Shown here piece after piece: positions 21,901 to 53,265 of a stretch of DNA of 53,265 nucleotides. Position numbers and translations under genes: made by a program. The notes under the pieces are model-generated. The model had not been told where the DNA came from and searched no databases. It worked only from the letters and a program-made list of their open reading frames with translations. This DNA comes from a virus: positions 1 through 53,265 of the IMG/VR virus record IMGVR_UViG_3300042374_000254, one strand, 5' to 3'. Every line of letters begins with the position of its first letter. Within the stretch, counting starts at the first letter, position 1.

Positions 21901-24900
21901 CGCTCGGAACATTTGTTCCTATTCCAACATAACCTCCTTGATTGAATCTAATTGCTGATAACCAAGCATTTCCTGCGACATTTCCTACATTAATATCAAT
22001 AGGATTAGTAAAAGCATTAGAGTATAGATTACTATTAAATTGAATATAATCTAAAGACCTTATGCGCCCAGCCGCTAAAAATCCACCATCTGTTCTAATA
22101 GAAGCACTTGAATCTCTATAAAGATTTGCAGAAGCATCTCCACCAAATGTTAGACCACTCGCAGCAGTTGTAGAACCAGCGTTACCAACAGACAATAAAG
22201 TAGTGGGTGTATTAGTTCCTATACCAACTAAACCAGCAGCAGTAATACGAATTCTTTCAGCGCCATTAGTTCCAATAGGCATGACGTTTGCTGCATTTAG
22301 CACCAAATTACCACCCATTCTTATTTGAGTGTTTGCGCTTGGGCCTTGGATCGTACTCTCGTCTTGAGACAAGAGAATCGCAGCTACACCAGCAGCGTTA
22401 CTTTGTACAATTTGTAATCTAGCTGTAGGATTAGTAATTCCTACACCTACATAACCCACAGCATCAATAACCATCCTTGTTACTCCGCTTGTGCCAAGTG
22501 AAAGAGGCTGACCGAGTATTGTTTGTAATTTAACTTGATAGTTGGTTCCATCTCTTACAGTAGAAAACTCTCCTAAAGCAGTTCCCAATTCGCTCAATCT
22601 AAAACTTACTTTATTAGCAGCAGAAACTCCATTGCTTGCGATATTCGCTAGTATATTTTCGCCGCTATTTAAGTTAACTTGCAGTTTGTCTCCGGGATTA
22701 CTTGTACCAATACCTACGTTTCTGGTGCTATTGATTACCATTGCTGGAGAAGCGGTAGGAATTCCAACGTCAATACCCGCTACATTATTACTAGTAGCTG
22801 TCCAAAACCACAACTCTCCTCCATGCCAGTTAGCGTCAACTACTTGAGAACGTCTTCTACCGGCAATTACAGCAGTAGCTTGAGAGTAGTTTGATGAATT
22901 TGACTTGCTTCCAAATACTAATGCAGGAGAAAATGTATCATTTGTATTTGAATCATTGTGAAGAATGATTCCAAGTTGTTTTGGCTGAGTAGTAGCGGTA
23001 TTATCAGAGTAGCTTACAACCAATGCTCTGGTCATAGAGTTACCTTGCAATTCTCCGGGATTAAAATTTAAATATCTAGCATTTGGAATTGTTACATCTC
23101 CATTAACATGGAGCGCAAATTTAGGAGCAGTATTTGAAATACCAATATTAGCACCTGAACCTACATATAAATCAATACCTCCTATTGGATTCGTAAAGGA
23201 AATATTATTGGTTCCAATTCTCATCGCTGGACCATTATGTGTTCCAACTAGCCAAGTACTTCCTAATGAATTAAATAAAGCAGAACCTCCTAATACAGAA
23301 GCATTATTCCATCCTCCCGCAGTTGTATATGGCACATAGCTTAAACTATTTGCAGCATCACCTGCCATTAGTGATTTATTATTATTTGCTGTTGCTCCTC
23401 CATATACTTGCAATGTCGCACCGGGATTATTTGTGCCTATGCCAACGTTTCCTATATTATTAATCCTTAATCTTTCAACACCGCTGGTATAAAATCTTGT
23501 ATTACCATGTGTAAAACTAGCATTGTTTTTTGTTAATTGTCCTATTTCTAGAGACCCACCAGCTACACCAACAGTACCGGGAGTATAAGCTATTCCTACT
23601 TGACTATCCCAATCCCAATCTTTACTTATTAATATTGTGCTTGTGGCATTATTTCCCATCATCCACAAATTACCATCATTGTATCCTAATAAATCAAACC
23701 CATTGTATCTTACGCGTTCATTTCCTTGCGTTAATTTAGCAACTACAGCATTAGATGTTCCAGCAGCTATTTCAAGTTTATAACTAGGATTTGTTAATCC
23801 AATACCAACATTTCCACCGCTTGCAATATAAACAGTATTACCTCCTATATTATCAGTAAACTGAATACCATTTGCTCTACCATATAATTGACCAGCAAAA
23901 GTATTAGTTCCACCATTAAACAAGGCAAATCCATAACCATTAGCAGGTCCAATTTGCCCAACTCCAGTAACTCTTAAAGCTCCAGCTACTTCTAATTTTA
24001 CAACTGGACCTGTAGTGCCAATACCCACATTTCCATTTTCATTTGTATATATTTGTTTTGTATTTGCGGAAGTTGCAATTTGATAAGTATAAGGCTGACT
24101 CCACGAACTTGATGATAAAACAAACTCATTAGGTGATGGACCGTTTACTGTTACAACAATATTATTAGCGTAACCAGTACCATAACCACCATTTATAGCG
24201 CCATTAGTTTTTAAAACTAAAGATGGCGTTCCATATTGACTAGTGCTAGAATTAGATAATGCTAAAAGAGTAACGTCATCATTACTGCAATTATAAGTGG
24301 CGCATTCTAAAAGTTTTACATTAATCCATGTTTCATTTGGTCGATAAGAAAGATGGCAACTAGCCAAAAATGTTCCTGCCCAAACGAGGTTTCCACCATT
24401 TACTGAAACTTGTATCAACTGACTAGAATAAGAAGCATTTCCTAATACTACTGTATATTGACCCCAGTTAGCATTAGTTGATTTAGAAAGAGAAGAATAA
24501 TAAGCAGAATTAGAATTATAAATTAATCCTGCGACGTTAAGAGATCCATCTGTTTTAATGGTATCTTCGGCAGCGCGATAAAGGTTTGCTTGAGGATCTG
24601 CTCCGAAAGTTATTCCACTTGCTGCGGTTGTTGAACCTGCGCCACCAACTCCAATAAGACTATCAGGACTTAACAATCCTACTCCTAAGCGACCAGCGGC
24701 AGTAAGGATCATTTTAAATGTTTGATTTGGTCTAAAGAACAAATCATTATTACCAATTGTATCAATAAATCCTTGACCATCCCATCTGATTATTTCTCCA
24801 CCAGAAATTCTAATACTTCCAGCAACATGGAGTCTATCAGAAGGATTTCTTATTCCTATACCAATGTTCCCACCAAGGGGATTTAATAATAATGGCCTTG

Positions 24901-26812
24901 CAGTGCTGCTAAGAGTTCTTACTTGTTGCCATATACCATAAGGAGAAGTATCATCTGATCCAAATGCTATCTGACCATTTTCACTACGAATAATTGCAGC
25001 AGCGGGTTTATTCCAAGTTAAAGAAGGAGGATATAAAACAGTATCTAAGACATGAAGCCTTCCGCTTGGATCATTAGTATTTATTCCTAATCTTGCTTGG
25101 TCAGTTAAAATCATTAATGTCGCAGAATCAGCAGCATTTTGCCAAAATATTGATCCACTAACATTAGTATTATAGAAAAAAGTATTGGCTGAAGCGGTTG
25201 CAAACCAAGGCTTGAGGACTCCACCGGGAGTTCTAGTATAAGCACCATAAGAGTTATTTATACCAGCAATTATTGCACCATTTACATCTAATTTTTGAGA
25301 AGGAGTCGTTACTCCCATTCCAATATTACCATTGCTAATAATAGACATAGCAACTGTGCTATTATTAACAAGAAAATGCATAGGATCTGATGTGACCTGT
25401 CTAACATAAGCACCAGAACCAGCAAGAGAAGAACCTTCGTAATATCCTAAAAGCAAACCATAACCACCATTTCTATTCGCAGCAAACCATTTTTCTGTTC
25501 CCGGTCCAGTTGAACTTATTTGTATAGGTACATTACCATCAGACAATGATCCATTGCCTACAGAAAGGAGAGCTAATGGATTCGTTGTCCCTATTCCAAT
25601 TTTACCATCATATTGAAAGTATGCAATTGTAGCTGCATCAGAAGAATTTTTTATTGATAAAGCAGACAAAGTGGCATCATGCATTCCAAAACTCATGTTA
25701 TATGATGAACCTCTATTGAATCTAATTCTAGATGCAGAGCTATATAAATCCAATAGTGCAGCAGGATTTGTTGTTCCTATTCCTATATTTCCATCAGAAC
25801 CAATTACCATTTGCGGTGAAGCTTCAGGAGTTCCACCGCCATCAACTTTAGTATAAAAATATAATTTACCACCAGCAATTGTGCCATTAGTTCCACCTTG
25901 AATAGCCTTAATAGCAGCTATTTGTAAATGTGCATCTGTTTGTCCTCTTGCTCTTGTAAAATAAATGCCACCTACTCCAGAGCCGTCTCCTGAATTATTT
26001 GAGATTAGATTTATATCTGCTTCATTTGTTTCAGAATATAAGTCTAAAAATTTAGCACTAGGATTTGGTCTAAAATAAGTAGCATTGCTATTTATTAAAG
26101 ATCCCGGATTACTTATTCCAATGCCAAGATCACCAGCAGCATCAATTCTGACTAACTCTGTATTGAATCGTGTAAATATATGTGCAGCAGAAGCTGCGGC
26201 AGTATTACCTGCATCTACCCTGTAAGTCATTACAGAGTTATTGTTTGATATACTATTAGTATATAATGCGTCATCTATAATTGTTATCGTAGTCGCGGCA
26301 GATCCAGAGACGAGCATGGAACCAGAGACATGCAGTTTAGATGCGGGATTTGTTACTCCTAGACCCACATCACCAGCAGCAGTTATACGCGCAACTTCAA
26401 CAGGACTTGTAGCATTAGTTAAAAACCTAATTCCATCGCGTGATTGAGAAGCTATTTCTAAACCCAAATAAGCTGTGGCACTCGTCCTCGCAAGACGTAT
26501 GTAAGCGGAAGCATTAGCAGTGCTATTATTTAATTGAAAATTATAACCGCAATAACCCACATTTGAAGTCGCATCTCCAGATACGTTGTATCCAAAAGCA
26601 TTTGTATTTGTGCTAATCGTCCCTAAATTTAAATCAAATGGATAATTTGGACCAGTAGTCCCTACGCCAAAATAACCCGCAGGAGTAATGTAAAGTCTAT
26701 TAGCATTATTTGTCTTCAATGACATTGCTTGGCTATCAGATGTCCTGATAACTAGCGTTCCTGCTGTTGAATTTACATCGTTTGACGCTGGTGTAATTAC
26801 GATATCGCCCAT
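18992..26812 (-). CDS. Giant tail fibre protein 1, NVGIGTTNP repeats
   Basis: This 2606-residue protein consists mostly of beta-repeat modules punctuated by NVGIG-T-NP-(x3)-KL-V signatures at intervals of roughly 60-120 residues, typical of trimeric beta-helical phage fibres. Two segments break the pattern: about 768-925 (a beta module with WINVKLLECATYNCSNDD) and about 2228-2414, a CBM-like jelly-roll (VFYMECWIQNVG, WIKVTGYIGGF, RISGWKVIKVY). Three copies of a 40-residue module around GSTSAASGITFGAD lie at nt 24550-24670, 22090-22210 and 19400-19520. The C-terminus has no S74 chaperone and ends with IQTGALSPADTVYIPLFK. It follows 4 nt after the second giant fibre gene, so the two are one transcript. 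Host-recognition or adhesion is inferred from the architecture. Confidence 0.85.
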   Translation of the reverse strand: MGDIVITPASNDVNSTAGTLVIRTSDSQAMSLKTNNANRLYITPAGYFGVGTTGPNYPFDLNLGTISTNTNAFGYNVSGDATSNVGYCGYNFQLNNSTANASAYIRLARTSATAYLGLEIASQSRDGIRFLTNATSPVEVARITAAGDVGLGVTNPASKLHVSGSMLVSGSAATTITIIDDALYTNSISNNNSVMTYRVDAGNTAAASAAHIFTRFNTELVRIDAAGDLGIGISNPGSLINSNATYFRPNPSAKFLDLYSETNEADINLISNNSGDGSGVGGIYFTRARGQTDAHLQIAAIKAIQGGTNGTIAGGKLYFYTKVDGGGTPEASPQMVIGSDGNIGIGTTNPAALLDLYSSASRIRFNRGSSYNMSFGMHDATLSALSIKNSSDAATIAYFQYDGKIGIGTTNPLALLSVGNGSLSDGNVPIQISSTGPGTEKWFAANRNGGYGLLLGYYEGSSLAGSGAYVRQVTSDPMHFLVNNSTVAMSIISNGNIGMGVTTPSQKLDVNGAIIAGINNSYGAYTRTPGGVLKPWFATASANTFFYNTNVSGSIFWQNAADSATLMILTDQARLGINTNDPSGRLHVLDTVLYPPSLTWNKPAAAIIRSENGQIAFGSDDTSPYGIWQQVRTLSSTARPLLLNPLGGNIGIGIRNPSDRLHVAGSIRISGGEIIRWDGQGFIDTIGNNDLFFRPNQTFKMILTAAGRLGVGLLSPDSLIGVGGAGSTTAASGITFGADPQANLYRAAEDTIKTDGSLNVAGLIYNSNSAYYSSLSKSTNANWGQYTVVLGNASYSSQLIQVSVNGGNLVWAGTFLASCHLSYRPNETWINVKLLECATYNCSNDDVTLLALSNSSTSQYGTPSLVLKTNGAINGGYGTGYANNIVVTVNGPSPNEFVLSSSSWSQPYTYQIATSANTKQIYTNENGNVGIGTTGPVVKLEVAGALRVTGVGQIGPANGYGFALFNGGTNTFAGQLYGRANGIQFTDNIGGNTVYIASGGNVGIGLTNPSYKLEIAAGTSNAVVAKLTQGNERVRYNGFDLLGYNDGNLWMMGNNATSTILISKDWDWDSQVGIAYTPGTVGVAGGSLEIGQLTKNNASFTHGNTRFYTSGVERLRINNIGNVGIGTNNPGATLQVYGGATANNNKSLMAGDAANSLSYVPYTTAGGWNNASVLGGSALFNSLGSTWLVGTHNGPAMRIGTNNISFTNPIGGIDLYVGSGANIGISNTAPKFALHVNGDVTIPNARYLNFNPGELQGNSMTRALVVSYSDNTATTQPKQLGIILHNDSNTNDTFSPALVFGSKSNSSNYSQATAVIAGRRRSQVVDANWHGGELWFWTATSNNVAGIDVGIPTASPAMVINSTRNVGIGTSNPGDKLQVNLNSGENILANIASNGVSAANKVSFRLSELGTALGEFSTVRDGTNYQVKLQTILGQPLSLGTSGVTRMVIDAVGYVGVGITNPTARLQIVQSNAAGVAAILLSQDESTIQGPSANTQIRMGGNLVLNAANVMPIGTNGAERIRITAAGLVGIGTNTPTTLLSVGNAGSTTAASGLTFGGDASANLYRDSSASIRTDGGFLAAGRIRSLDYIQFNSNLYSNAFTNPIDINVGNVAGNAWLSAIRFNQGGYVGIGTNVPSGKLHVVSSVAGETVLRADGTNGILFSVVDDLSDSLMSVNNSAGLPVLEVFADDRIVMGQYGANDFVLANNKIGLGTNNPEYELDIVGAGTNAAVNIITRMRSTAGSNVFNTASVLAFTNTTTNSNAYSYIGGRIDLGGAGDNCQSLVFATNATNTLPTEKMRITSAGNVGIGSTDPQYKLDVYGTNQDAVRFYNNQTAFGLILGSTNNTLFTNIVWTTSNGNAQFFKNRSSTSWGGADSMNLYSSNGGFAFHANGVANRFNITTAGDVGIGASTPSQKLDVRGFVVSDVNSNSVEGGFFLGNQSHGIRRAAGTNDVRLHTNGGDVILGAAGSGSQQVTLKNGGNFGINISTPTSKLHVVETTPTGSRIQLDTASANAYMNAGRVNDFLILTAPFNAVPASNSNNNAKWGIKLNGSIDSPNTNSKTAAIYAVSEEDVAGGAGYNRKVGIALHTSAFDLEHTERVRIDNLGNVGIGITNPAYRLVVSGGDMSIASANILRFGAVSVLNTSSNANDIYANIRVIRNESTVNTDGMYVNYNSNGATAAHLRFYASGSTERMRIDASNGNVGIATTSPFEKLDVRGGILRTNTRVDNTELYPVGHYAAGETVFEIDPTWSQVELQRYFNNSNVTWEAVADAPGGYCIYINGSVDVGGPYGSGFPYIPVDTNDVFYMECWIQNVGTAQGHYMGSQDLDQNFGNLGGNPGSYGYWVMSNYNPGTSWIKVTGYIGGFSNTIGQFKAGTKYWTPLALFNYTAGTGTRACRISGWKVIKVYQPGNRFFAGTVGIGLSNSATILGVGGAGSTSAASGITFGADSAANIYRSSTSQLKTDGSFVVTNTLTVGGADLGARVLKNGSDSISSTLYLANAANSRAYNFQPNAAGTNLALWAYNSSNAWINTVNFNYDGNVGIGASPVAARLHIKGDGLNPVLRVESAMLAGAAGGTAGKTFVGWMPIQTGALSPADTVYIPLFK

Positions 26813-26816
26813 ATTT

Positions 26817-29800
26817 TTATTCCATATCCCTTTCGATTACAAGTTTAGAAACATCCTTACGTTCTGCAAAAATTGTATAGTAATAATTATATATATTATC
26901 ATCACTATCTGTATAAATGTACACTTTGTTGTGCCCTATTTGATCTACACTATAGTTTCTTATTTTCCCGTCTTTACGCTTTCCTACTGCTGTTAAATTA
27001 ACAGTAATAGAATCATCATGAACCAAACCTGACCAATAATGAGGTAGATCTATTTCATTGTTATTGTTTTGACCTCTGTAATAAACGCCATTTTCTGGAC
27101 CTTCTAGAGAGGCATAGGTTAGTCTCTTGCCAGAAACCGTTGGGTGAACTATATCGAAGCTCTTTGTTGTAGCAGCGAAGCTGCCATTAACTTGTAATTT
27201 ATAAGAAGTACTTGTAATGCCTATTCCAATTGTTCCATTGGAGGCTATTCTCATTGCTTCTGTGTTTCCGACTCCAACCCCAAAAGCCATTCCATAAAGC
27301 GAGCCGCTTGGGTTAAATTCAATGTAAGCTTGATTTGTTACATCTGTACGCTTTTGAATCTTCGTGCTGGCAGTTGTCCAGTCTCCTCCTGTTGCAAAAC
27401 GTGTTTCTACAAAATTAATTTGTGAAACGTTTCCATTATTGACAGCATAAGTAAATCCAGTAATAGTAGATCCAGCAGGAATGCCGGGTAATAATCCTGC
27501 ATTTATATTTAAGGTAGTAACAGTAACAGTATTAGTACTGAAATTACCATTGACTACTAAACTGCCATCTGTCTTTAATGTGTCTGTTGCGCTTCTATAA
27601 AGATTAGCTTCACTATCTCCGCCAAATCTTATTCCTTCTGTATTTGATGTAGCCCCTGCTGAACTTACATCTAACAGTCCAGAAATATAAGCGGTTCCAA
27701 TTACTACTAATTTTTTATCAGGATTAGTCGTACCTATACCGACATTTCCATTTGCTGCGATGTAGAGACTTTCATTAGAAGTGTTTGTTCTAAGATACAT
27801 GGCAGCGTTTGCTGCTAGTATTAGATTTCCATTACTAGTTGATTTTGTTAATATTGAAAATGAACCACCCGTTCTACCGCCAACTATTTGAGCAGATCCA
27901 ATCGTACCAATTTGGACCTCATCTCCATTAGAGCCAGTAACATGAAGTTTAGCAGAAGGATTAGTTAATCCAATTCCTACATTTCCATTTGGGAAAACTG
28001 CTCTATTATTTGCTCCGCCTCCATCAGCATAAATTCCAAAAAACTCTGTAGCACTTGCACTATTATTAGCTACTGCAATTGTAAATGGATGAGTCGCATC
28101 ATATATAGAAGAAATGTTTGCGAAGTAAGCTCCGGGACCACTTGCAGTTTGGAGCCTTAATTGAGTTCCATTTGAATGGATTGTTAAAACTCCAGTTGGA
28201 GCGATAGTGCCAATACCAACATTACCATCATTAGCTATTCTTACTTTTTCAGATGATGCAATTGAAAATGTAATCGCTGGAGATACTGCCCCTGCATAAT
28301 CTGTATTTAATCCTACAGTATTACTGCTTTCATTAGCATATATAGCTAATGCTGGATTAATTGTAGCTCCAATTCTTCTAAAATATCCAATAGTACCATC
28401 AGATGTTTTTTGTACATCTAATTTATAACTTGGAGCCGTTGTTCCAATACCAACATTACCACCATTTGGATTTAATAGTAATGGATAACCTAAAGATAAA
28501 TCTACACGACTTGTAGATTGTAACCAATTTCCATTTCCGCCGTTGCCGCCAATATCTAATACTAAATTGGAATCACTATTTCTTAGTCTTAAGTTGACTC
28601 CTGTTGCAGTTGTACCTGCTGCGATTGGGAAGCTTCCAATTGGTCCTACAACGTCTAGTGCAACGACTGGTGAAGTAGTTCCAATTCCTATACCATTAGA
28701 GTTTAATGAAATAGTTCCTTTAGTTACAAATCCATAAGTAAGGTCTAATCTATTACCAGCATAATAAATTAATCTAGCATTAGAATCTCCTCCAACAGAA
28801 TTTGTAAAGTCAATATAAGCTCCATTTGCTCCTAGTAATTGTAATTGAGCATAAGCGTCTGCGTAATTAAAGCCCATTGAACCTACTTTATTTAATCCAT
28901 ATCTGCTTCCAGAAGAAGAATTATCTGAAACTACAAAAGGCCAGTTAGTATCAGAAGTTGAAGCATTTATTCCTAGTGAACCATTTACATCTAGTTTAAA
29001 TGAAGGATTAGTGTTGCCAATTCCAACTTTATTATTAACAAGAACAAAATCGCCGCTTCCATATTGCCCTGCGACAACTCTATCGTCAGCGAATACTTCA
29101 AAAACTGGAAGACCAGCAGAATTATTAACCGACATCAAAGAGTCACTTAAATCATCAGTGACTGAGAAAAGAGTACCATTAGTTCCATCTGCTCTTAAAA
29201 CGGTTTCTCCAGCGACAGAAGAAACTACATGAAGCTTTCCGGTTGGTTGTGTTGTACCTATTCCTACATAAGAGCCTCTTCCAATGTACAGAGCGGTTTC
29301 CCAAGCATTTTGAGCTACATTCCCAACAAATACACTCAAAGTTCCATAAGGTGCCCCTCCATAAATTTCACCAAGAGCAGTTTGTAAATACGAAGCAGCA
29401 TATATATAAGAAGAAGACGACAAAGAAGCAGCAGTAAAAGCGGCATCTGTTTTAAGAAGATCTTCAGAAGCGCGATATAAATTTACTTGAGCATCGCCTC
29501 CAAAAGTTAACCCACTTGCTGCTGATGTTGAACCGACACCACCAACTGATAAAAGAGTTGTTGGAATATTCGTACCTATTCCTAATTTACCATCAGATGT
29601 AATTCTTACTCTTTCTGTTTGTTGAGTATGAAATGTTGTATGATTCCAACTGCTTAAAATCATTCCGTCAATTACAGAATCATATTTTAGATACTGAGAA
29701 GAAATATCATTAGCCCAACTAATAGCAGATCCACTTCCAGCAGCCATATAAATACTGCCGCTGACATTTAATTTTAATGGAGTAACATTTGTACCAATTC

Positions 29801-32800
29801 CAACATTTCCGTCAGCCTGAATTCTGACTCTTTCGTTAGCGGTAGAAACAGATTCAGTACCAGCAGTGTTATTTGTATAAAATGTTAAAGCTCCTCTTCC
29901 GTAGTTATTAGTTCTTACAAAACCAACTGAACCTTTGACTCCATATACAGTAGATTCTCCTGCTGCAAAACCGATGCCTACTATGTCGCCTTGATTAGGC
30001 GTACCCATATTAGTTAATTGAAGTTGATTAAATATTTGAGAAGTGCCATTTCCAGAATATATATGTAATGCAGATACAGGATTCGTAGTTCCTATGCCAA
30101 CATTACCATTGGAAGAAATGCGGAAGCGTTCTGAACCATTTGTTATTAATCCAAGATAATTTGAACCAGCACTTAAAGTAGTAACGCTGCCTAATAACGC
30201 TAGAACAGATGTCGTGCTGTATGCCAAATACGTTCCATTTGCTTGATTTAATCTTAAATAAGGCGCAGTAGTGTCTCCATAAATATATCCACCATCTGTT
30301 AGCTTTATGTTTCCACTAACTTCTAATTTTTGTGCGGGATTTGTTGTTCCTATACCAACATTGCCATCGTAATTTATTCTTACAGCTTCTTGTAATTCCG
30401 GCGTTCTACTTTGTTTGGCAGTGTAAAATCCCAAACCAGCATAGGCTCCATTAGAAAATTCTGATATACTTGCTATTTTACCAGCTACAATACCGCTAAT
30501 AGAAAGATCTCTTTGTGCAAATTCCAATGCAGAATTAATTTCTCCAACAGCAAGAACATTTACTTTTCCGCCATTTATACGAATAGTACCCGCTGTTTCG
30601 GATGCGCCCAAAACTTCAAAATTTACAGCAGGATTTGTAGTGCCTATTCCGACACCTGTGCCGTTGTCATAAATACTACCTGTAACCAATTGTTTAGTGC
30701 CGCTCCAGCGAGGGACGTAGTTGGATACTCCGACTCCAGAAAGGAAAGTGTTACCTGCGTAACCGCTCAGAGAGTTAATCTTCGTATCAAGGACCGAACC
30801 AGTTGCAGCTAGGTTAAGGATCGTCGCAAAGTTCGCGTTGGAATAACCGCTCAGAGAGTTGATCTTAGAATCAAGGGTTGAACCTGTGGTAGCGAGATTT
30901 CCGCTTAAAGAAGTAATAGTTGGAGAAATAATTCCAACAGAAGCAATTAAATGACCAGTAGAAGAAGTAGAGACAGGAATAACAGAGCTATAGTTTTGAT
31001 TTCCTAAAGATCTAATTTTATTTACTCTTAATGCACCAGCAGAGATAGCTTGATTTGCTACAAAAGAAAATCTAAAATATCTTGAAATACCACCCGCCTG
31101 AATTGAATTAGCAACACTTAAAGCAATTGTTCCCCTTGTATTATTAGTAGGGAAATTTTGTTCTGTTATGCAATTGGTCCAATTTACTAAGTCATTACTA
31201 TTTTCAACATTTAATTTGAATCCCCACCAGTTTTGACTCCAATCAGTATTTAAAAGTATAAAATTTGGTCTTCTGTAATAATCTGCTAAATCTACAACGA
31301 ACCTTTTTCCAGAAATTCCAACAGAATATTCTGAAGAAGTTACTACATCTAAATAAGATGTCGCATTACCATCCAATAAATTACGATATGACAAAGGTGC
31401 TGGATCTGCATACCAGTTATCACCAGAAAAATACTGACCGCTAAGAGTAGTTTTAAATCTTAATGGATCATTGACACCAATAGCATTAGATAGTGCATCT
31501 ATTAATTCTAAATTGGATTGTGGAGCAAAAGCTGTGTTTGCGGTATACCCTAAATAAGCACTACCCGTATTCGAAGGATAAGCTAAATCTTCACCAACAA
31601 TTATATAATCAGAAAATCTAGCGTTTCCACCGGAAACATCTAGCTTAACTGCGGGATTTGATAATCCTATTCCAACATTTCCATTACTTTTTAATATAAA
31701 ATTAGAAGTAGTATTTCTATAAAATTCTACAACATCGTTTGAACCATCATCTTGTTGAACATAAAATGCAGTACCAGCAGTATTATTTTGAACTCTAGCT
31801 CTACCTCTTACGTCTAAAGCAGTAAGTGGGCCAGTTGTGCCTATACCAACATTACCAGCAAAAGTTCCATTTGAAGTGACTACTAAAGAACCATCTGTTT
31901 TAATTGTGTCTTCAGCGGATCTATATAAATTTGCCTGAGCGTCTCCTCCAAAAGTTAATCCGCTTGCTGCTGAAGTTGATCCAAGTCCACCAAGAGAAAG
32001 AAGTGTTTGTGGATTTATAGTTCCAATTCCAACTTTGCCATCAGCCTTAAATACAGATATACCACTAGCACCAGCAGAAAGAACAATAGAATTAGGATTA
32101 GCTGAAAGTAAAATCAAATCATCAGAAAGACCTCCGGTGACAGCAGATGCCAACCCGATGCTGGCTTCTGGAGTTTGTGCTTTATAAAATTCAATTTGAG
32201 AACCAGCATTATTTCCTGTACTCCCTACTAATCTGACTGTAGCAATGCTTGATACTGTACCGCTATTTATTATATGTAATTTTACGGTAGGATTAGTTGT
32301 TCCTATTCCAACATTTCCACCATTTGCTACAGTAACAGCATTAGCGTTAGTGGTTCTATTGAAAATAGCAAATCCATTTGTGCCATCTGCACCAGCGGAC
32401 CATAAATTACTTGTACTGCTTTGGAAATCCATCCAAGTACCAGCAGTTGATCCAGAAATAAATACCAATTGGTTGTCGCTTGAAGTGATATGAAGTTTTC
32501 TAAGTGGATTAGTTGTGCCGATACCAACATTACCATTTGTATCTATTGTTAAACGTTGCGTATTTGATGTATAAAAATAAAGATTATCAGCGGAATAACT
32601 TATTATACCGGCACTATTAGTGCTATTTGAAAATTTTATAGCAGCAAAAGCAGCAGAAGATGCAATATGTAATTTTTGTTCTGGAGCAGTTGTTCCTATA
32701 CCAATATTACCATTATGGTAAATACGCATTCTTTCAGCATAAGTTTGGTCATTGAGTTGATTTGTATAAAATGCTAAACTTGTGCCTCTATTGTAACCCA

Positions 32801-34616
32801 AAGTATCTTCGCTGACAGCATAAATTGCTGAAGTTTTCCCTAAGCTATTTGAAAGAGAATCGACCGCTCCAATAAATTTAATACCCCATTTTGCTCCAAT
32901 ATTAGAAGTTGTCGCTGAATTAACGCCATAAGGAGCATTTAAAATTAATAAATCATTTGTAGAACCCGAATTCATCAAAGCACTTTCAGAAGAAGTACCT
33001 AATTGAATTCTTGTTCCTGTTGCAGTAGTTTCTACTACATGTAATTTAGAAGTAGGCGAAGTCGTATTTATGCCTACGTCACCACTAGGATCAATATAAA
33101 CGGCATTAGTTAGACCATTTGTTTGAAAGTATAAATCTGAACCACCTAATATTAAACTTTGATAAGAGCTAGATAAAGTATTATCTACGCCCTGTATATA
33201 AGTGCCAGCAGAGTTGAGATTAAATCTTACTCCTTTAGTTGCACCTGCCACAGAAAAAGCATATGTACTATCAGGACTTACAACATGTAATCTACCATTT
33301 GGAGTAACTGTACCTATTCCTACATTTCCTCCAGAAGTTATACTCATTAAAGTACTTCTTCCGCCACCACCAACAGAAGTCTGAGTACTAAAATATAAAC
33401 TTTGACCACTTGCCCAATCAAAATAATTTATTCCATTATTTCTAAACAAAGAAAGTCTAGAGTTATTTCCTTCGCTAATTAATTCTCCGCTTGCTCTTAC
33501 TGATCCAATTACATCTAATTTATAACCGGGGTTACCTATTCCAATTCCTGCGTTTCCACTAACTAATAAATTTGAGGTTATATTGGTAGTGCCATTTATT
33601 TTTGAATCACCAAATACTTCAAAAGTATCAGAAGACTGAGAGTGCGCTCCAAATCTTACTAGATTTATGTATTGATTAGCAGTGCCTCCCGCTTGTTGTA
33701 AGTATAAAGGAATATTTGAGGAGCGATCTACTTTTATGAATCTATGTCTATATTGACCATTTGTATATGTATTATGATCGAAAACTAAACCAAAAACTCC
33801 AGTAGCATTTGGATATGAGTTTGTATCGGGAATTCCTGATTGGGCGGTAAATCCCATATTTCTTAAATGCAATTGACCCGATGGAGTAGTTATGCCTATT
33901 CCAACATAGCCGCCATTTGGATTTAATAAAAGTGGATAAGTTGCAGATAAACTAGTTTCATCAGTTGATTGTATCCATCCACCTAAACCTCCTCCTCTGA
34001 TACCAAAATCTATTACTGCATTATCCGTGGTATTACTAATTCTAAATATACCGCTTTGAGTTGTGCCTACAGAAGCAGGATTACCAACGGTTCCATCAAC
34101 TTGAAATTTTTGAACTGGGTTAATGCCAATACCTAAACTACCATCTATTTTTAAAGCCCCCGCTGCTGATCTGTATAAATTTGCAGTAGAATCTCCACCA
34201 AAAGTCAAGCCACTTGCCGCAGAAGTAGAACCTGCACCACCAACAGACAAAAGGGTTGTTGGACTAATAGTACCTATTCCAACATTTGTACCATTATCAT
34301 ATATACTTCCAGTAATTAATAACTTGCTCCCATTCCAACGAGGAACATAATTAGTAATACCATTTCCTGATAGGAAAGTATCATTCGCATATCCACTTAA
34401 AGAATTAATTCTATTATTTAATAACGTTCCAGTAGCAGCAATCTGCCCACTTAAAGCAGCAAGATCAGCATTACTTGAATCTGCTTGCCACATTACGCCA
34501 GACGACGTAGCTGTTAGGACTTGGCCATTAGCTCCTATACTATTCGAACGGTCAAATATAAAACCAGATATCTGAACGCCCGTAGCGAATAATTCATCTA
34601 TAGCAAATTGCGCCAT
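26817..34616 (-). CDS. Giant tail fibre protein 2 with LEGPE-type C-terminal domain
   Basis: This 2599-residue product is made of the same NVGIGTTNP modules. An N-terminal unit (about 39-119) with NYVPRWNGSKLLITGSIYDN reappears at about 1239-1330, as if two fibres were fused. Residues about 1046-1206 look like an F5/8-type (discoidin) carbohydrate-binding domain (FVVDLADYYRRPNFI, WWGFKLNVENS, RYFRFSFV). Four copies of the GSTSAASGLTFGGD module occur. The C-terminal about 120 residues hold FDIVHPTVSGKRLTYASLEG and VYYRGQ, a domain I know from T4-like and cyanophage fibres. This is not the S74 self-cleaving chaperone, as its catalytic pattern is missing. It starts 32 nt after a terminator with a fused GTGTAA motif, so it heads the fibre operon. 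Confidence 0.86.
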   Translation of the reverse strand: MAQFAIDELFATGVQISGFIFDRSNSIGANGQVLTATSSGVMWQADSSNADLAALSGQIAATGTLLNNRINSLSGYANDTFLSGNGITNYVPRWNGSKLLITGSIYDNGTNVGIGTISPTTLLSVGGAGSTSAASGLTFGGDSTANLYRSAAGALKIDGSLGIGINPVQKFQVDGTVGNPASVGTTQSGIFRISNTTDNAVIDFGIRGGGLGGWIQSTDETSLSATYPLLLNPNGGYVGIGITTPSGQLHLRNMGFTAQSGIPDTNSYPNATGVFGLVFDHNTYTNGQYRHRFIKVDRSSNIPLYLQQAGGTANQYINLVRFGAHSQSSDTFEVFGDSKINGTTNITSNLLVSGNAGIGIGNPGYKLDVIGSVRASGELISEGNNSRLSLFRNNGINYFDWASGQSLYFSTQTSVGGGGRSTLMSITSGGNVGIGTVTPNGRLHVVSPDSTYAFSVAGATKGVRFNLNSAGTYIQGVDNTLSSSYQSLILGGSDLYFQTNGLTNAVYIDPSGDVGINTTSPTSKLHVVETTATGTRIQLGTSSESALMNSGSTNDLLILNAPYGVNSATTSNIGAKWGIKFIGAVDSLSNSLGKTSAIYAVSEDTLGYNRGTSLAFYTNQLNDQTYAERMRIYHNGNIGIGTTAPEQKLHIASSAAFAAIKFSNSTNSAGIISYSADNLYFYTSNTQRLTIDTNGNVGIGTTNPLRKLHITSSDNQLVFISGSTAGTWMDFQSSTSNLWSAGADGTNGFAIFNRTTNANAVTVANGGNVGIGTTNPTVKLHIINSGTVSSIATVRLVGSTGNNAGSQIEFYKAQTPEASIGLASAVTGGLSDDLILLSANPNSIVLSAGASGISVFKADGKVGIGTINPQTLLSLGGLGSTSAASGLTFGGDAQANLYRSAEDTIKTDGSLVVTSNGTFAGNVGIGTTGPLTALDVRGRARVQNNTAGTAFYVQQDDGSNDVVEFYRNTTSNFILKSNGNVGIGLSNPAVKLDVSGGNARFSDYIIVGEDLAYPSNTGSAYLGYTANTAFAPQSNLELIDALSNAIGVNDPLRFKTTLSGQYFSGDNWYADPAPLSYRNLLDGNATSYLDVVTSSEYSVGISGKRFVVDLADYYRRPNFILLNTDWSQNWWGFKLNVENSNDLVNWTNCITEQNFPTNNTRGTIALSVANSIQAGGISRYFRFSFVANQAISAGALRVNKIRSLGNQNYSSVIPVSTSSTGHLIASVGIISPTITSLSGNLATTGSTLDSKINSLSGYSNANFATILNLAATGSVLDTKINSLSGYAGNTFLSGVGVSNYVPRWSGTKQLVTGSIYDNGTGVGIGTTNPAVNFEVLGASETAGTIRINGGKVNVLAVGEINSALEFAQRDLSISGIVAGKIASISEFSNGAYAGLGFYTAKQSRTPELQEAVRINYDGNVGIGTTNPAQKLEVSGNIKLTDGGYIYGDTTAPYLRLNQANGTYLAYSTTSVLALLGSVTTLSAGSNYLGLITNGSERFRISSNGNVGIGTTNPVSALHIYSGNGTSQIFNQLQLTNMGTPNQGDIVGIGFAAGESTVYGVKGSVGFVRTNNYGRGALTFYTNNTAGTESVSTANERVRIQADGNVGIGTNVTPLKLNVSGSIYMAAGSGSAISWANDISSQYLKYDSVIDGMILSSWNHTTFHTQQTERVRITSDGKLGIGTNIPTTLLSVGGVGSTSAASGLTFGGDAQVNLYRASEDLLKTDAAFTAASLSSSSYIYAASYLQTALGEIYGGAPYGTLSVFVGNVAQNAWETALYIGRGSYVGIGTTQPTGKLHVVSSVAGETVLRADGTNGTLFSVTDDLSDSLMSVNNSAGLPVFEVFADDRVVAGQYGSGDFVLVNNKVGIGNTNPSFKLDVNGSLGINASTSDTNWPFVVSDNSSSGSRYGLNKVGSMGFNYADAYAQLQLLGANGAYIDFTNSVGGDSNARLIYYAGNRLDLTYGFVTKGTISLNSNGIGIGTTSPVVALDVVGPIGSFPIAAGTTATGVNLRLRNSDSNLVLDIGGNGGNGNWLQSTSRVDLSLGYPLLLNPNGGNVGIGTTAPSYKLDVQKTSDGTIGYFRRIGATINPALAIYANESSNTVGLNTDYAGAVSPAITFSIASSEKVRIANDGNVGIGTIAPTGVLTIHSNGTQLRLQTASGPGAYFANISSIYDATHPFTIAVANNSASATEFFGIYADGGGANNRAVFPNGNVGIGLTNPSAKLHVTGSNGDEVQIGTIGSAQIVGGRTGGSFSILTKSTSNGNLILAANAAMYLRTNTSNESLYIAANGNVGIGTTNPDKKLVVIGTAYISGLLDVSSAGATSNTEGIRFGGDSEANLYRSATDTLKTDGSLVVNGNFSTNTVTVTTLNINAGLLPGIPAGSTITGFTYAVNNGNVSQINFVETRFATGGDWTTASTKIQKRTDVTNQAYIEFNPSGSLYGMAFGVGVGNTEAMRIASNGTIGIGITSTSYKLQVNGSFAATTKSFDIVHPTVSGKRLTYASLEGPENGVYYRGQNNNNEIDLPHYWSGLVHDDSITVNLTAVGKRKDGKIRNYSVDQIGHNKVYIYTDSDDNIYNYYYTIFAERKDVSKLVIERDME

Positions 34617-35392: not shown

Positions 35393-36538
35393 TTAGTTGG
35401 TGATAACGCCACCGATTGCGCGAGCGTCAACACAAATGCGACCTTCCTCTAGGAAGCCATAGAAACCAGTCTTCTCTGCGCGAGAGATAAATTGGTCATC
35501 AGGGAGAACAGTGAGTTGACCACCGCTCTCAGCGTTAGTAGCGACAGGGCGAATGAAGGCATCGCGGCTCAAGTCAAGACCGATTGAGAGGTCATGAGAA
35601 GCAGTGGCGAAGGTAATAGCATTTGCTCCATTGATGTCAGGATAAGTGGTTACGTCAAATGAATCAAATAGAGTGTTATACTTTTGGTTCTTACCGAGTT
35701 CGACTAGTTCGATAATGTTAATACCGAACAAGCTCTCCATTCCGCCACCTCTATAAATCTCAGTGCGGACATCTTCAGACAATTGAGTTTGAGTAGTAGA
35801 AGAAGTTCCGAAAAGAGGATTAAATGAGAAAGCGCGGATCTTAGCCTTGATTTCAGGGCTAATGAAGAGATCAGTCAATCCGCGAGCAGAAGCATCAGAA
35901 GGAGTGCCGCCAGCGAATGAAACATTAATTCTCTTAAAGCGGAGAATCAAGTCGTTCAAGCAGCCCATATCAAAAGCTCTTGCACCACCAGTTGGAGCGA
36001 TAAGATGCTTCAAAGCTCCAGAGGTTGAATAAGGAATTGAGCGACCATTCAAGGTAGCAGCAGCACCGAGAGCCTTTAGAATAACAGCCCACGCATTGCG
36101 CTCTTGCTTAACAAGAACCTCTTGAGCCATACGATCCAAAGCTCCGCTAACTACGTCAAGACGAGCTTTGCGAGCATACTTCTTGTTGAAAGAAACGGCA
36201 GAGTCAAGACGATAAGTAGCGATCTTCAACTCTTGAACTGGTTGATCCATGTAGTTAGTGGGTAGACCACCAGCGACATTTTGTGACCAAACGGAAACTA
36301 GACCAGCAGCCTCATTGTAATAAAGGTCAAGAGGATAAGAAGGACTATCATCCTCATTAAACTCCATATCTCTATAGATCATACCGGCAGTACCAGCTTG
36401 AGCGAGTACCTTTTGGATAACTGGTCCAACGAAAGCGGCCAAAGCTTCCATAGCTTCAGCGGACTCAACAACATTGCGAGAACCAACCTTTTTGATTAGC
36501 TCTACTTGTTCTGGCGTATTTTTTAATTTAAGTCTCAT
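35393..36538 (-). CDS. Major capsid protein (HK97 fold)
   Basis: The 381-residue product has the N-arm/E-loop/P-domain profile of HK97-fold capsid proteins: a long helical start (residues 1-45), the DMEFNEDDSPSYPLDLYYNE segment, an AVSFNKKYARKARLDVVSGA helix at about 115-140, and a spine-helix-like LVKQERNAWAVILKALG. The gene uses more GC-rich codons than its neighbours, as expected for the most expressed protein. It follows 37 nt after the cement candidate and precedes a strong terminator. The start lacks a Shine-Dalgarno and has only AT-rich sequence upstream. Self-assembly into the head shell, with the protease-scaffold gene upstream, completes the canonical head operon. Confidence 0.85.
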   Translation of the reverse strand: MRLKLKNTPEQVELIKKVGSRNVVESAEAMEALAAFVGPVIQKVLAQAGTAGMIYRDMEFNEDDSPSYPLDLYYNEAAGLVSVWSQNVAGGLPTNYMDQPVQELKIATYRLDSAVSFNKKYARKARLDVVSGALDRMAQEVLVKQERNAWAVILKALGAAATLNGRSIPYSTSGALKHLIAPTGGARAFDMGCLNDLILRFKRINVSFAGGTPSDASARGLTDLFISPEIKAKIRAFSFNPLFGTSSTTQTQLSEDVRTEIYRGGGMESLFGINIIELVELGKNQKYNTLFDSFDVTTYPDINGANAITFATASHDLSIGLDLSRDAFIRPVATNAESGGQLTVLPDDQFISRAEKTGFYGFLEEGRICVDARAIGGVITN

Positions 36539-36575
36539 ATTATTTAGTTAATTAGTTAGTTGTTATTATTGCTTA

Positions 36576-37145
36576 TTATAGGTCGAGGTTCAATAATGCA
36601 TAACCATCATCATCAGCAGAACCTAAATAAGTTCCAACTTTAGCACCACCGCTACCACCATAAATAGTAGCATTGGTTTCCAATTCACCATTAGCGTTAA
36701 TGAAAGCAGAGTTACCAGCAGTAGCTCCAGTTGCATAAGCCAAGATGACGCCACGCTTGAGAACTGGTACGGTTTGTCCAGAGACAACGGCACTCAATTC
36801 AGCAGCTTTGCGAGGGTTATAGATTAGTTTCTCGCCGTTTTCGTCTGTTTCACGAACGTCATTGAGAAGAAGTCCGACAACCTTACCCAAGTCGCCAGTA
36901 CCAGCAGTGGTAACGCGAGCAGTGGTAGAATAACGATCAGAAACTACGTTGCTGTAAGAAGCTCCAACAGCAGTAGCTGATGTAATATTTAGAGCATCAT
37001 CGGTATTTTTCCAACCGGCTCCAAGAACTTTAACGAAAGTTCCTTTGTTTACAGTTTCGAGATCGAAAGCGAACATGTTGATAACTTCATGCTCACCATA
37101 ACCACGAAATGGTTTAATTAATCTTTTAGTAGATGAATATGGCAT
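36576..37145 (-). CDS. Capsid decoration (cement) protein candidate
   Basis: The 189-residue product is a beta-rich, Ala/Gly/Thr/Val-rich protein with an initial PYSSTKRLIKPFRGYGEHEV segment, then alternating strands (VKVLGAGW, GKVVGLLLNDVRE, VPVLKRGVILAYATG). This profile and its place between the protease-scaffold and the major capsid gene match head-decoration or stabilising proteins. The codon usage is GC-richer than surrounding genes, suggesting high expression. An AGGAAAACACT upstream of ATG 37145 is a reasonable Shine-Dalgarno. Confidence is moderate because no family-diagnostic motif is visible. Confidence 0.65.
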   Translation of the reverse strand: MPYSSTKRLIKPFRGYGEHEVINMFAFDLETVNKGTFVKVLGAGWKNTDDALNITSATAVGASYSNVVSDRYSTTARVTTAGTGDLGKVVGLLLNDVRETDENGEKLIYNPRKAAELSAVVSGQTVPVLKRGVILAYATGATAGNSAFINANGELETNATIYGGSGGAKVGTYLGSADDDGYALLNLDL

Positions 37146-51378: not shown

Positions 51379-51398
51379 GTGCTTGACTTTCGTTTGAA

Positions 51399-51839
51399 TC
51401 AGTCGGCCAGATTGGCGACGTTTTCCAACGCGAAGCAAAGGAACTGCGGTTCCCCCTTGTCGGGGCTATAGTCGCGAATGGTGGCGAGTTCCTCGGGGGT
51501 CGCTTCGCGGCCATCCACAAGGTAACGGGTGACCCGCTTGGCGGACGTAGGAACGGCGGCCAGATACAAGGCCCCGCTTTCCTTGTGCATGACCAACCCA
51601 TCCTTGACCCAAGTGAACCACGGGGCCTTGCCAGCGGGGGCCTCGCCTGTGCGGGCCTCTAAAACGTTGGAGTATGTCTCAGGCCCCGCCACGGTGACCG
51701 TGATGCGGTGGTCGCGGGTCACGCGACCCAAGAGCGGGTTCAGGGGAACGCCAGCGCGGCCCCCCTTGTTCATTTTGTGTTCGCCAGTCAAGAGGATGGT
51801 GGCGAGGCGACCGGCGCGGATGGTGGTGGTGTCAATCAT
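51399..51839 (-). CDS. GC-rich gene, phage-family protein with NPL-GRVT motif
   Basis: The 146-residue product has an N-terminal helical start, then NKGGRAGVPLNPLLGRVTRD (24-43), a central KAPWFTWVKDGLVMHK segment and a C-terminal part with AVPTSAKRVTRYLVDGREAT, PEELATI and FALENVANLAD. I recall this signature (xNPL-GRVT and DG-PAT-EE) as a conserved unnamed phage family. The C-terminal half matches the partial gene at 53105..53265 at roughly 40% identity (PTS, YL-DGR, EELET/ATI, ENVxN). The codon usage is strongly GC-rich, unlike the rest of the window. Function unknown; compact enough to be a beta-rich regulatory or small-molecule-binding protein. ATG 51839 is preceded by the shared leader. 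Confidence 0.72.
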   Translation of the reverse strand: MIDTTTIRAGRLATILLTGEHKMNKGGRAGVPLNPLLGRVTRDHRITVTVAGPETYSNVLEARTGEAPAGKAPWFTWVKDGLVMHKESGALYLAAVPTSAKRVTRYLVDGREATPEELATIRDYSPDKGEPQFLCFALENVANLAD

Positions 51840-51860
51840 GATGCGTTGCTTTCTTAAAAC

Positions 51861-51914
51861 GTCGCCGTGATTGGCGACAAGGAAAGACTCTCACGGGTCG
51901 CTTCCGTTGTCACC
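51861..51914 (-). promoter_or_regulatory. Conserved 5' leader, copy A
   Basis: Minus strand begins GGTGACAA, continues with CCGTGAGAGTCTTT and ends with the hairpin GTCGCC-AATCAC-GGCGAC, 21 nt before ATG 51839. It matches copy B at 52387-52441 over about 55 nt. Confidence 0.6.
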
Positions 51915-52008
51915 TAGAAAGTGAAAGAAAAGTGAAAAACCTTTCAGGGTCATGCATAGGGTCCGAAGCGCGTCAAGCCAAAAAGTGGAAAAAGATTGTC
52001 AAGGAAAA

Positions 52009-52047
52009 AGAGTTGCAAGAATCGGGGACTCCGTTTTCTGCAACTCT
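52009..52047. repeat. AGAGTTGC hairpin repeat, copy A
   Basis: AGAGTTGCA and TGCAACTCT flank a 21-nt loop containing GGGGACTCC, giving a 9-bp stem. Copy B lies at 52557-52595. No T-run follows, so it is not an obvious terminator. Confidence 0.6.
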
Positions 52048-52062
52048 CCTTTGGAAAGAGAC

Positions 52063-52101
52063 TTGGCACGGTCCCTGCTGTCCTAGCAAGAGCCGTGCCA
52101 G
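52063..52101. promoter_or_regulatory. TTGGCAC palindrome with sigma-54-like arms, copy A
   Basis: The plus arm is TTGGCACGGTCCCTGCT (52063-52079), the minus arm is CTGGCACGGCTCTTGCT (52085-52101). The minus arm matches TGGCAC-N5-TTGCT, the spacing of RpoN -24/-12 promoters, and faces the 51399 gene. It could alternatively be a palindromic operator or a recombination site. Confidence 0.5.
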
Positions 52102-52113
52102 TCTAGCCTTGGG

Positions 52114-52371
52114 TCACTCTGCGAAAAGATCGGCCTTGGCGCGAGAGTGAGCCATGATGGCATGAGTCTTGCTCACATCCGTGGGGATGAAGGAAAGGCG
52201 GTAGGTCATGAGGTTCAGAGCGTCCTTGATTTCCTGCAACTGCCGCTTTCGACTAGCGACCAAGGAAGTCCTGTCTTCAAGGAACACGATGTCGGTTTCC
52301 AAGGCGACCATTCCGCCAATCAAGGCGGCGCGGACTTTGGTGGCTTGCTCTGCGGTGATGATGTTTTCCAT
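52114..52371 (-). CDS. GC-rich gene, small helical protein
   Basis: I prefer ATG 52371 (MENIITAEQATKVRAALIGG), giving 85 residues; the frame is open upstream but then runs through the conserved leader, which is aligned at the RNA level and not in frame with copy A. The product is nearly all helical with an acidic patch and LVASRKRQLQEIKDALNLM. The general pattern and size resemble the AT-rich neighbour at 52839..53036, but identity is too low to call homologous. The function is unknown. It lies 10 nt from the palindrome A, upstream of the 51399 gene. Confidence 0.6.
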   Translation of the reverse strand: MENIITAEQATKVRAALIGGMVALETDIVFLEDRTSLVASRKRQLQEIKDALNLMTYRLSFIPTDVSKTHAIMAHSRAKADLFAE

Positions 52372-52386
52372 GTTGTGTTTTATAGT

Positions 52387-52441
52387 GTCGCCGTCATTGA
52401 CGACGGGAAGACTTTCGCACGGATGCATTTTGATTGTCACC
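52387..52441 (-). promoter_or_regulatory. Conserved 5' leader, copy B
   Basis: Minus strand begins GGTGACAA, continues CATCCGTGCGAAAGTCTT and ends in GTCGTC-AATGA-CGGCGAC, 15 nt before ATG 52371. The hairpin keeps base pairing by compensating change (GTCGCC to GTCGTC, with a G-U pair), which argues for an RNA structure. Confidence 0.6.
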
Positions 52442-52481
52442 AACTTTCTCAAAGAATCTTTGAGTACCCAATCGAAAGCCC

Positions 52482-52498
52482 AGCACGTTTCATGCCAA
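52482..52498 (-). promoter_or_regulatory. Sigma-54-like half-site before gene B
   Basis: Minus strand TTGGCATGAAACGTGCT with the GG and GC dinucleotides at the RpoN spacing. It faces gene B, ATG 52371 lies about 110 nt downstream. Confidence 0.42.
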
Positions 52499-52505
52499 GT
52501 CTAGG

Positions 52506-52543
52506 TTGGCATGCTCTTTGCTCCCCAGCATAGACTATGCCAA
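52506..52543. promoter_or_regulatory. TTGGCAT palindrome B1 with sigma-54-like arms
   Basis: The plus arm is TTGGCATGCTCTTTGCT (52506-52522), the minus arm TTGGCATAGTCTATGCT (52527-52543), separated by CCCC. The plus arm matches TGGCAT-N5-TTGCT exactly in spacing. Confidence 0.5.
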
Positions 52544-52556
52544 GTCCGCACTCCAG

Positions 52557-52595
52557 AGAGTTGCGAGAGTTGGGGTCTCCTTTTCTTGCAACTCT
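52557..52595. repeat. AGAGTTGC hairpin repeat, copy B
   Basis: AGAGTTGC pairs with GCAACTCT around a GGGGTCTCC-containing loop. About 80% of the positions match copy A at 52009-52047. Confidence 0.6.
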
Positions 52596-52606
52596 CGGTT
52601 TTCCGG

Positions 52607-52644
52607 TTGGCATGGCACTTGCTCCCCAGCACGAATCGTGCCAA
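52607..52644. promoter_or_regulatory. TTGGCAY palindrome B2 with sigma-54-like arms
   Basis: Plus arm TTGGCATGGCACTTGCT (52607-52623) and minus arm TTGGCACGATTCGTGCT (52628-52644) around CCCC. The plus arm fits the -24/-12 consensus closely. Confidence 0.52.
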
Positions 52645-52649
52645 GTCGG

Positions 52650-52666
52650 TTGGCATGGAACTTGCT
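52650..52666 (+). promoter_or_regulatory. Sigma-54-like half-site at island right edge
   Basis: Plus strand TTGGCATGGAACTTGCT, the eighth half-site, without a partner arm. It faces away from island genes toward the AT-rich flank; it may be a remnant of a third palindrome cut off at the island boundary. Confidence 0.42.
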
Positions 52667-52729
52667 TCCCCTTATACTACTATAAGCCATTTCTCACTAA
52701 TGTTAGTGATAAATCCTTATATATATACA

Positions 52730-53104: not shown

Positions 53105-53265
53105 TTAGCCTTCTACGTTTACGACATTTTCAATTGCAATAGTGAGAAACTCGGCTGGCTCACTAGCTGGCTTGTACTTATACAAGGTTTCTAGTTCTTC
53201 TTCTGTCATAGGGCGACCGTCTAATAAATATTCAATCTTACCAACATTGCTAGTAGGAATACCAG
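53105..53265 (-). CDS. Partial homologue of the 51399 gene (5' end beyond right edge)
   Basis: The reading frame is open from the right edge to TAA at 53105-53107. It encodes the C-terminal 52 residues of a protein related to the island gene at 51399..51839: (A/G)(V/I)PTS, then Y-L-DGR, T-EEL-T, and a FLxxAxENVxN ending. About 22 of 52 positions are identical. The AT-rich composition shows it is native to this genome, in contrast to the GC-rich island copy. The start lies outside the window. Function unknown. Confidence 0.75.
   Translation of the reverse strand, partial: GIPTSNVGKIEYLLDGRPMTEEELETLYKYKPASEPAEFLTIAIENVVNVEG

Follow-up and report, generated by a model that had tools for sequence, protein, structure and literature searches.

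What protein would recognise a short bipartite sequence that is repeated within 600 bp beside two small genes of a freshwater phage? The locus lies in IMG/VR record IMGVR_UViG_3300042374_000254, of which positions 1–53,265 were analysed as a single stretch of 53,265 nucleotides, referred to here as the window. Pfam and PHROGs searches identified TerL-like, PhoH and sigma-70-like genes in the window, marking it as phage DNA. Its GC content is ≈35%, rising to 50–65% in a 1.3 kb island at about 51,390–52,670. A preliminary description had reported eight half-sites of the form TTGGCAY-N6-TGCT in this island and had proposed that they match the geometry of sigma-54 promoters. Sigma-54 is the one bacterial polymerase factor known to bind its promoters tightly, yet remain silent until acted upon by an ATP-driven activator; nitrogen and envelope stress, motility and pili are under its control.

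All eight half-sites were present at 52063–52666, seven of them exact and one, on the minus strand at 52085, starting with CTGGCA, a variant that is allowed for sigma-54. The count was incomplete, since a ninth site with one mismatch had been overlooked; it sits within island gene 2, in the orientation opposite to the gene (Table 1). No other exact copy occurs elsewhere in the 53,265-base record, and the backwards pattern, used as a control, gave no matches. With up to one mismatch allowed, the window contained 13 matches against 2.0 expected, nine of them within the 600 bp, and none of 100 dinucleotide shuffles of the window reached 13, a comparison that the preliminary description had suggested. 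The first hexamer of the site at 52650..52666, with TATACT 17 bases further on, is also a sigma-70-like match. A reading of TTGGCA as a sigma-70 -35 element, with a -10 element at 16–17 bases, showed no evident enrichment.

The copies are organized into two blocks in which neighbours are 21–24 bp apart. The larger block has six strictly alternating copies (minus-plus-minus, the inverted repeat at 52556–52596, plus-minus-plus) and is symmetric about the repeat, while the second block consists of the two copies at 52063–52101. The three palindromes described earlier were found as tail-to-tail pairs with centres of 5, 4 and 4 bases. As had also been noted, the island genes are each faced by one minus-strand arm (52085 and 52482); half of the copies point away from any gene.

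Table 1. Features of the GC-rich island (window coordinates) and the activator gene of another phage contig. Scores are from the E. coli matrix described in the text.
Feature	Sequence	Position	Strand	Score	Remarks
Island gene 1		51399..51839	-		146 aa; phage-specific family; relatives in 9 array-bearing contigs
Short palindrome	GTCGCCGTGATTGGCGAC	51861..51878			Immediately upstream of gene 1
Inverted repeat	AGAGTTGC...GCAACTCT	52009..52048			Lies between gene 1 and the 52063/52085 pair
Putative sigma-54-type site (-24/-12)	TTGGCACGGTCCCTGCT	52063..52079	+	18.3	Exact; points away from genes
Putative sigma-54-type site	CTGGCACGGCTCTTGCT	52085..52101	-	21.5	Faces gene 51839–51399
Island gene 2		52114..52371	-		85 aa from ATG 52371; open reading frame
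Putative ninth site	ATGGCATGAGTCTTGCT	52157..52173	+	18.8	One mismatch
Near-copy of gene-1 palindrome	GTCGCCGTCATTGACGAC	52387..52404			Immediately upstream of gene 2; kept in orthologues
Putative sigma-54-type site	TTGGCATGAAACGTGCT	52482..52498	-	16.0	Exact; faces gene 52371–52114
Putative sigma-54-type site	TTGGCATGCTCTTTGCT	52506..52522	+	19.1	Exact
Putative sigma-54-type site	TTGGCATAGTCTATGCT	52527..52543	-	14.9	Exact
Inverted repeat, same element as 52009	AGAGTTGC...GCAACTCT	52556..52596			Centre of six-site array
Putative sigma-54-type site	TTGGCATGGCACTTGCT	52607..52623	+	18.7	Exact
Putative sigma-54-type site	TTGGCACGATTCGTGCT	52628..52644	-	17.6	Exact
Putative sigma-54-type site	TTGGCATGGAACTTGCT	52650..52666	+	18.9	Exact
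NtrC-type activator gene		L261/G047, 35828–36772			Profile match; GAFTGA loop in translation

The window is contained at 100% in a longer IMG/VR record (G003; 79,412 bp), and arrays plus gene of the same layout are found at the same place in IMG/VR records from other samples, showing that the array is not an assembly artefact. The product of island gene 1 had no Pfam or PHROGs match, and a structure search returned only uncharacterised phage proteins; Pfam and PHROGs searches with the product of gene 2 gave no matches. Sigma-70 promoter prediction gave no good candidate for either gene. Directly to the right of the GC-rich 146-aa gene is an AT-rich paralogue (53105–53265; 54% identical), complete in G003 at 17707–18144, which suggests that a divergent copy was imported. 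The AGAGTTGC/GCAACTCT inverted repeat, with ≈22 bases between its arms and the centre GGGG(T/A)NCCC, occurs in 12 copies at 8.3–19.2 kb in G003, each preceding an early gene cassette. In related phages it is swapped for other dyads in the same place, either GATAGTTTTC..GAAAACTATC or GTAAGTC..GACTTAC. Elsewhere in the window, two neighbouring giant ORFs of ≈2,600 aa each (18992–34616), with internal repeats common to both, probably encode tail fibre or surface proteins.

The identity of the motif was assessed with a position-specific scoring matrix (PSSM) built, independently of the window, from 50 intergenic sites that sigma-54 binds in E. coli ChIP data, as tabulated in PMC4591121; the presence of sigma-54 in the phage host was assumed. 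Over the whole window, seven positions reached or exceeded the E. coli median of 16.6, all of them in 52063–52666, and the reversed window had no such position. The nine sites were all among the top 11 of ≈106,000 scored positions, and the minus-strand site at 52085 had the highest score in the window (21.5, compared to 21.3 for the top-scoring E. coli site). When applied to 11 other array-bearing phage sequences (≈770 kb), the matrix marked mostly the arrays, and reversed controls gave nothing; a comparison Caulobacter phage had one match versus three in its control. The median score was 18.0 for phage sites and 16.6 for E. coli sites.

The spacing was equally constrained. Across phages, TTGGCA-N7-TGC was found at 238 sites, whereas any other spacing gave at most 12 and the reversed control one. 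A core-only search for TGGCA-N7-TGC yielded 281 sites versus one in the control, in a set that leaves out the pairs by which the loci were retrieved. Retrieval was biased to TTGGCA and TGCT ends, a bias on which the tests of the free positions and with the matrix were meant not to depend. In the 281 sites, position 1 was T/C in 82%, position 7 C/T in 98%, position 8 A/G in 96%, position 13 T in 57% and position 17 A/T in 94%; the E. coli ChIP sites have C/T in 90% at position 7 and A/G in 88% at position 8. T at positions 1 and 17 was more dominant in the phage sites than in E. coli, as in the Geobacter RpoN consensus, TTGGCACGGTTTTTGCT, which agrees with the phage motif, as does the published consensus mrNrYTGGCACG-N4-TTGCWNNw (PMC2725144). 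The motif agrees with a sigma-54 site in having TGGC at -24, TGC at -12, an invariant spacing, and the degenerate positions Y, R, T and W. In the orthologous arrays of the window, L034 and L035, positions 2–6 and 14–16 had changed in 0 of 128 cases and the degenerate positions 1, 7, 8, 13 and 17 in 13 of 80, compared to 22% for non-site columns, although these three are kin and the substitutions are not independent counts. Each copy is near the consensus, and the copies as a set are under selection, with conservation at the bases critical for sigma-54.

Searches for the motif beyond the window, also proposed in the preliminary description, recovered palindromic or tandem arrays in well over 100 IMG/VR stretches with GC contents of 29–63%, all in records with metagenome names. 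Inverted or everted pairs were present in 25, 30 and 64 stretches (overlapping sets); for direct pairs the number was at least 120. Among the carriers are a T4-like 203-kb phage (with Gp20 and Gp23), the window's own lineage and a phage whose terminase resembles that of Caulobacter phages. A count over 30 long records gave 127 exact sites, compared to none in the controls; such counts across loci lack phylogenetic independence. The motif is therefore not a family quirk, but common to unrelated phages, in many of which the elements recur singly, in inverted pairs or in tandem beside early or accessory genes. Searches for relatives of the window, by TerL and otherwise, retrieved distant isolates only, and the array is absent from the related Caulobacter phage RW. 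In bacteria, exact inverted pairs were found in only four stretches of 84,980 genomes, and a 2.3 Mb Mariprofundus MAG had 10 sites in total. Two contigs of this MAG (L044, 61–102; L046, 91–132) both start near one sigma-54-like inverted pair whose centre is 8 bp long; the pair may be a repeated element at which the assembly was interrupted. The densest array seen was in L199 (contig 3300049489_000321; 147.5 kb), with ≈24 sigma-54-like sites in 770 bp (5660–6445), arranged in blocks of alternating orientation with differing spacers.

Unpaired single sites in phages retain the GG-to-GC spacing, while the palindrome is dispensable, the opposite of the outcome (palindromes kept, this spacing lost) that the preliminary description had named as evidence against its sigma-54 interpretation. 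This bears on two explanations in which pairing is central. Hairpin or cruciform elements, in RNA or DNA, would fit the inverted pairs with their short centres, but unpaired sites are conserved as well. Moreover, in tail-to-tail pairs with a gap of 4, the arms were identical at positions 7, 9 and 10 in 10, 4 and 6 cases, respectively, compared to 17.2, 11.7 and 11.0 expected from shuffling. That the arms are less alike in their spacers than by chance points to half-site recognition and argues against hairpins, and we consider such elements highly improbable. The preliminary description had also raised recombination sites of exchangeable cassettes, and the cassettes of phages G012 and G022, with repeated arrays between them, have that appearance. 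Single and tandem sites are common, however, the flanks are variable, and conservation at the base level tracks sigma-54 rather than the symmetry of strand exchange, so that recombination or cassette exchange has hardly any likelihood left. The behaviour of the motif likewise speaks against an integron or attC-like site.

Two phages with sites encode an activator of their own. In G047, a 53 kb phage contig retrieved via its sites, a 314-aa protein carries a Sigma54_activat domain (PF00158; E = 1.7e-53) with a GAFTGA loop, and its nearest solved structures are NtrC and FleQ. Beyond PF00158, Pfam returned nothing for this protein, a DNA-binding domain included. The G047 sites follow the local gene direction or fall in a divergent region at 48.5–49.8 kb. 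A second phage (L267/G061) was retrieved solely by its activator, which has 50% identity to the G047 protein and a GAYTGS loop; it turned out to have four exact sites, and 14 with up to one mismatch versus one in the control. In both phages, a site is located on the 3' side of the activator gene. In the window's lineage, and likewise in most carriers in the available sequence, no gene with an AAA+ activator domain or GAFTGA loop was found. A phage-encoded sigma-54 was rejected, as the Sigma54_DBD domain was absent from every carrier searched (0/26 and 0/30 array-carrying records, many of them fragments). A weakly predicted sigma-54-like protein has been described in Pectobacterium phage Q19 (PMC7693777).

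The setting of the sites differs between phages. Orthologous single sites in G005, G008 and G020 precede a start codon by ≈33 bp, and the intervening stretch is rich in purines; an ordinary sigma-54 promoter has this layout. In most G012 and G022 cassettes, which are paralogous and thus do not represent many independent events, a forward site lies 41–42 bp upstream of a sigma-70-like -35 hexamer and a reverse site at 75–76, and four T4-like early promoters in G016 have a forward site 46–48 bp upstream. (G016 also has a repeated early-promoter block at 186–202 kb, TTCTTGCAATTACCAGAAAT, with an ATG close behind; some of these blocks have a sigma-54-like site ≈46 bp upstream.) Such sites in G012, G022 and G016 appear operator-like and would count against docking of sigma-54. 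They are consistent with a bipartite 17-bp look-alike, an operator or activator site at which another host or phage protein binds in cooperative pairs and controls sigma-70 early promoters. The fixed dyad gaps and 21–24 bp periodicity would also fit, and E. coli sigma-54 sites are not known in such arrays. This explanation does not account for the position-by-position agreement with sigma-54, degenerate positions included, or for the activators linked to sites in two phages, and a search for a regulator gene common to the array neighbourhoods of unrelated phages found none. We consider it rather improbable. An operator for a dimeric repressor, an alternative raised in the preliminary description, retains some probability as well.

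Taken together, the E. coli matrix hits, fixed spacing, degenerate positions, conservation among orthologues and activator-bearing phages make a strong case, based on sequence comparison, that the motif is very probably a sigma-54 element; it is unlikely, though conceivable, that the site of another protein would share all these features by chance. The sigma-54 part of the earlier interpretation is thus strongly supported, while the firing of these copies as promoters stays presumptive. We infer binding from the motif, and promoter use from position and the two activator-bearing phages. Docking of host sigma-54 (RpoN) polymerase on the array, with the gene-facing copies as activator-dependent promoters, is the explanation that we favour, at about even odds. 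The single sites ahead of start codons in G005, G008 and G020, and the lack of a good sigma-70 candidate for either island gene, also speak for it; the stronger preference for T at positions 1 and 17 compared to E. coli sites, and the search of the window's lineage that found no activator domain, speak against it. In such a scheme, the nine half-sites would act as -24/-12 elements that dock the host polymerase onto phage DNA, where in the infected cell it would be held as a transcription-silent closed complex. The copies at 52085 and 52482 would be the activator-dependent promoters of the two island genes. In the window's lineage, they would be switched on by an enhancer-binding protein of the host; the two other phages bring their own activator. 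The tight packing, together with the half of the copies that face away, argues against every copy being a promoter. Since neighbours 21–24 bp apart could not be occupied at once, the extra inverted copies may instead keep the region occupied, leading to more capture and probably to exclusion of other polymerases.

The same packing and indifference to orientation make a sponge the main, and a serious, rival to docking. Here, the arrays would bind sigma-54, alone or as holoenzyme, but yield no transcripts, and replicating phage DNA would titrate the factor and shut down the host regulon. Sites are densely packed irrespective of orientation, up to the ≈24 that L199 fits into 770 bp; same-strand copies have a spacing peak at 26–29 bp and a second at 36–37 bp, one helical turn more; the phage sites are closer to consensus than those of E. 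coli (the medians given above); and binding of sigma-54 needs no activator and can take place even in the absence of core polymerase (PMC2725144). Titration would, on the other hand, require neither the restriction of sites to upstream regions of early genes nor dyad gaps fixed at 4–5 and 7, and two site-bearing phages have their own activator. We therefore regard a pure sponge as unlikely, although less so than the look-alike operator. The data suggest that many phages recruit or trap host sigma-54. A broader proposal, in which dedicated capture arrays sequester or park host sigma-54 polymerase for takeover and some phages add a minimal activator, is put forward tentatively, as somewhat less probable than the docking of polymerase at the window's array.

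Use of sigma-54 by phages as a repeated genome feature is seemingly undescribed in the open-access papers covered here. If true, it would represent a new layer of phage–host transcription control, offer a clue for host prediction, since the hosts must have rpoN, and provide researchers with compact activators and with naturally occurring arrays of high affinity.

Several known systems resemble these arrays. The stoperators of mycobacteriophage L5 and the SAS/ESAS of cluster K are likewise short asymmetric elements repeated in phage intergenic regions, but they have other sequences and are phage-specific, whereas the sigma-54-like motif is common to unrelated phages. The G047 and G061 proteins share the AAA+ domain (PF00158) and the GAFTGA or GAYTGS loop with enhancer-binding proteins of the NtrC/PspF type, but are short. 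RpoN -24/-12 promoters (YTGGCACG-N4-TTGCW) have the same core, spacing and degenerate positions as the phage sites, which equal or exceed the E. coli ChIP sites in score; the phage sites differ in being predicted, in lying in inverted, everted or tandem arrays 21–28 bp apart, and, in the window's lineage, in having no enhancer site or activator identified. A search of the open-access literature, outside which most subscription journals lie, found no earlier report of sigma-54 arrays in phages. A further parallel is with the intragenic or silent sigma-54 sites of E. coli, which are near-consensus and bind polymerase without transcribing, and for which decoy roles have been proposed (PMC4591121). 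These are mostly single and chromosomal, while those of the phages form arrays. Thus, the sigma-54 element itself is already known, but its dense arrays in phages seem to be new.
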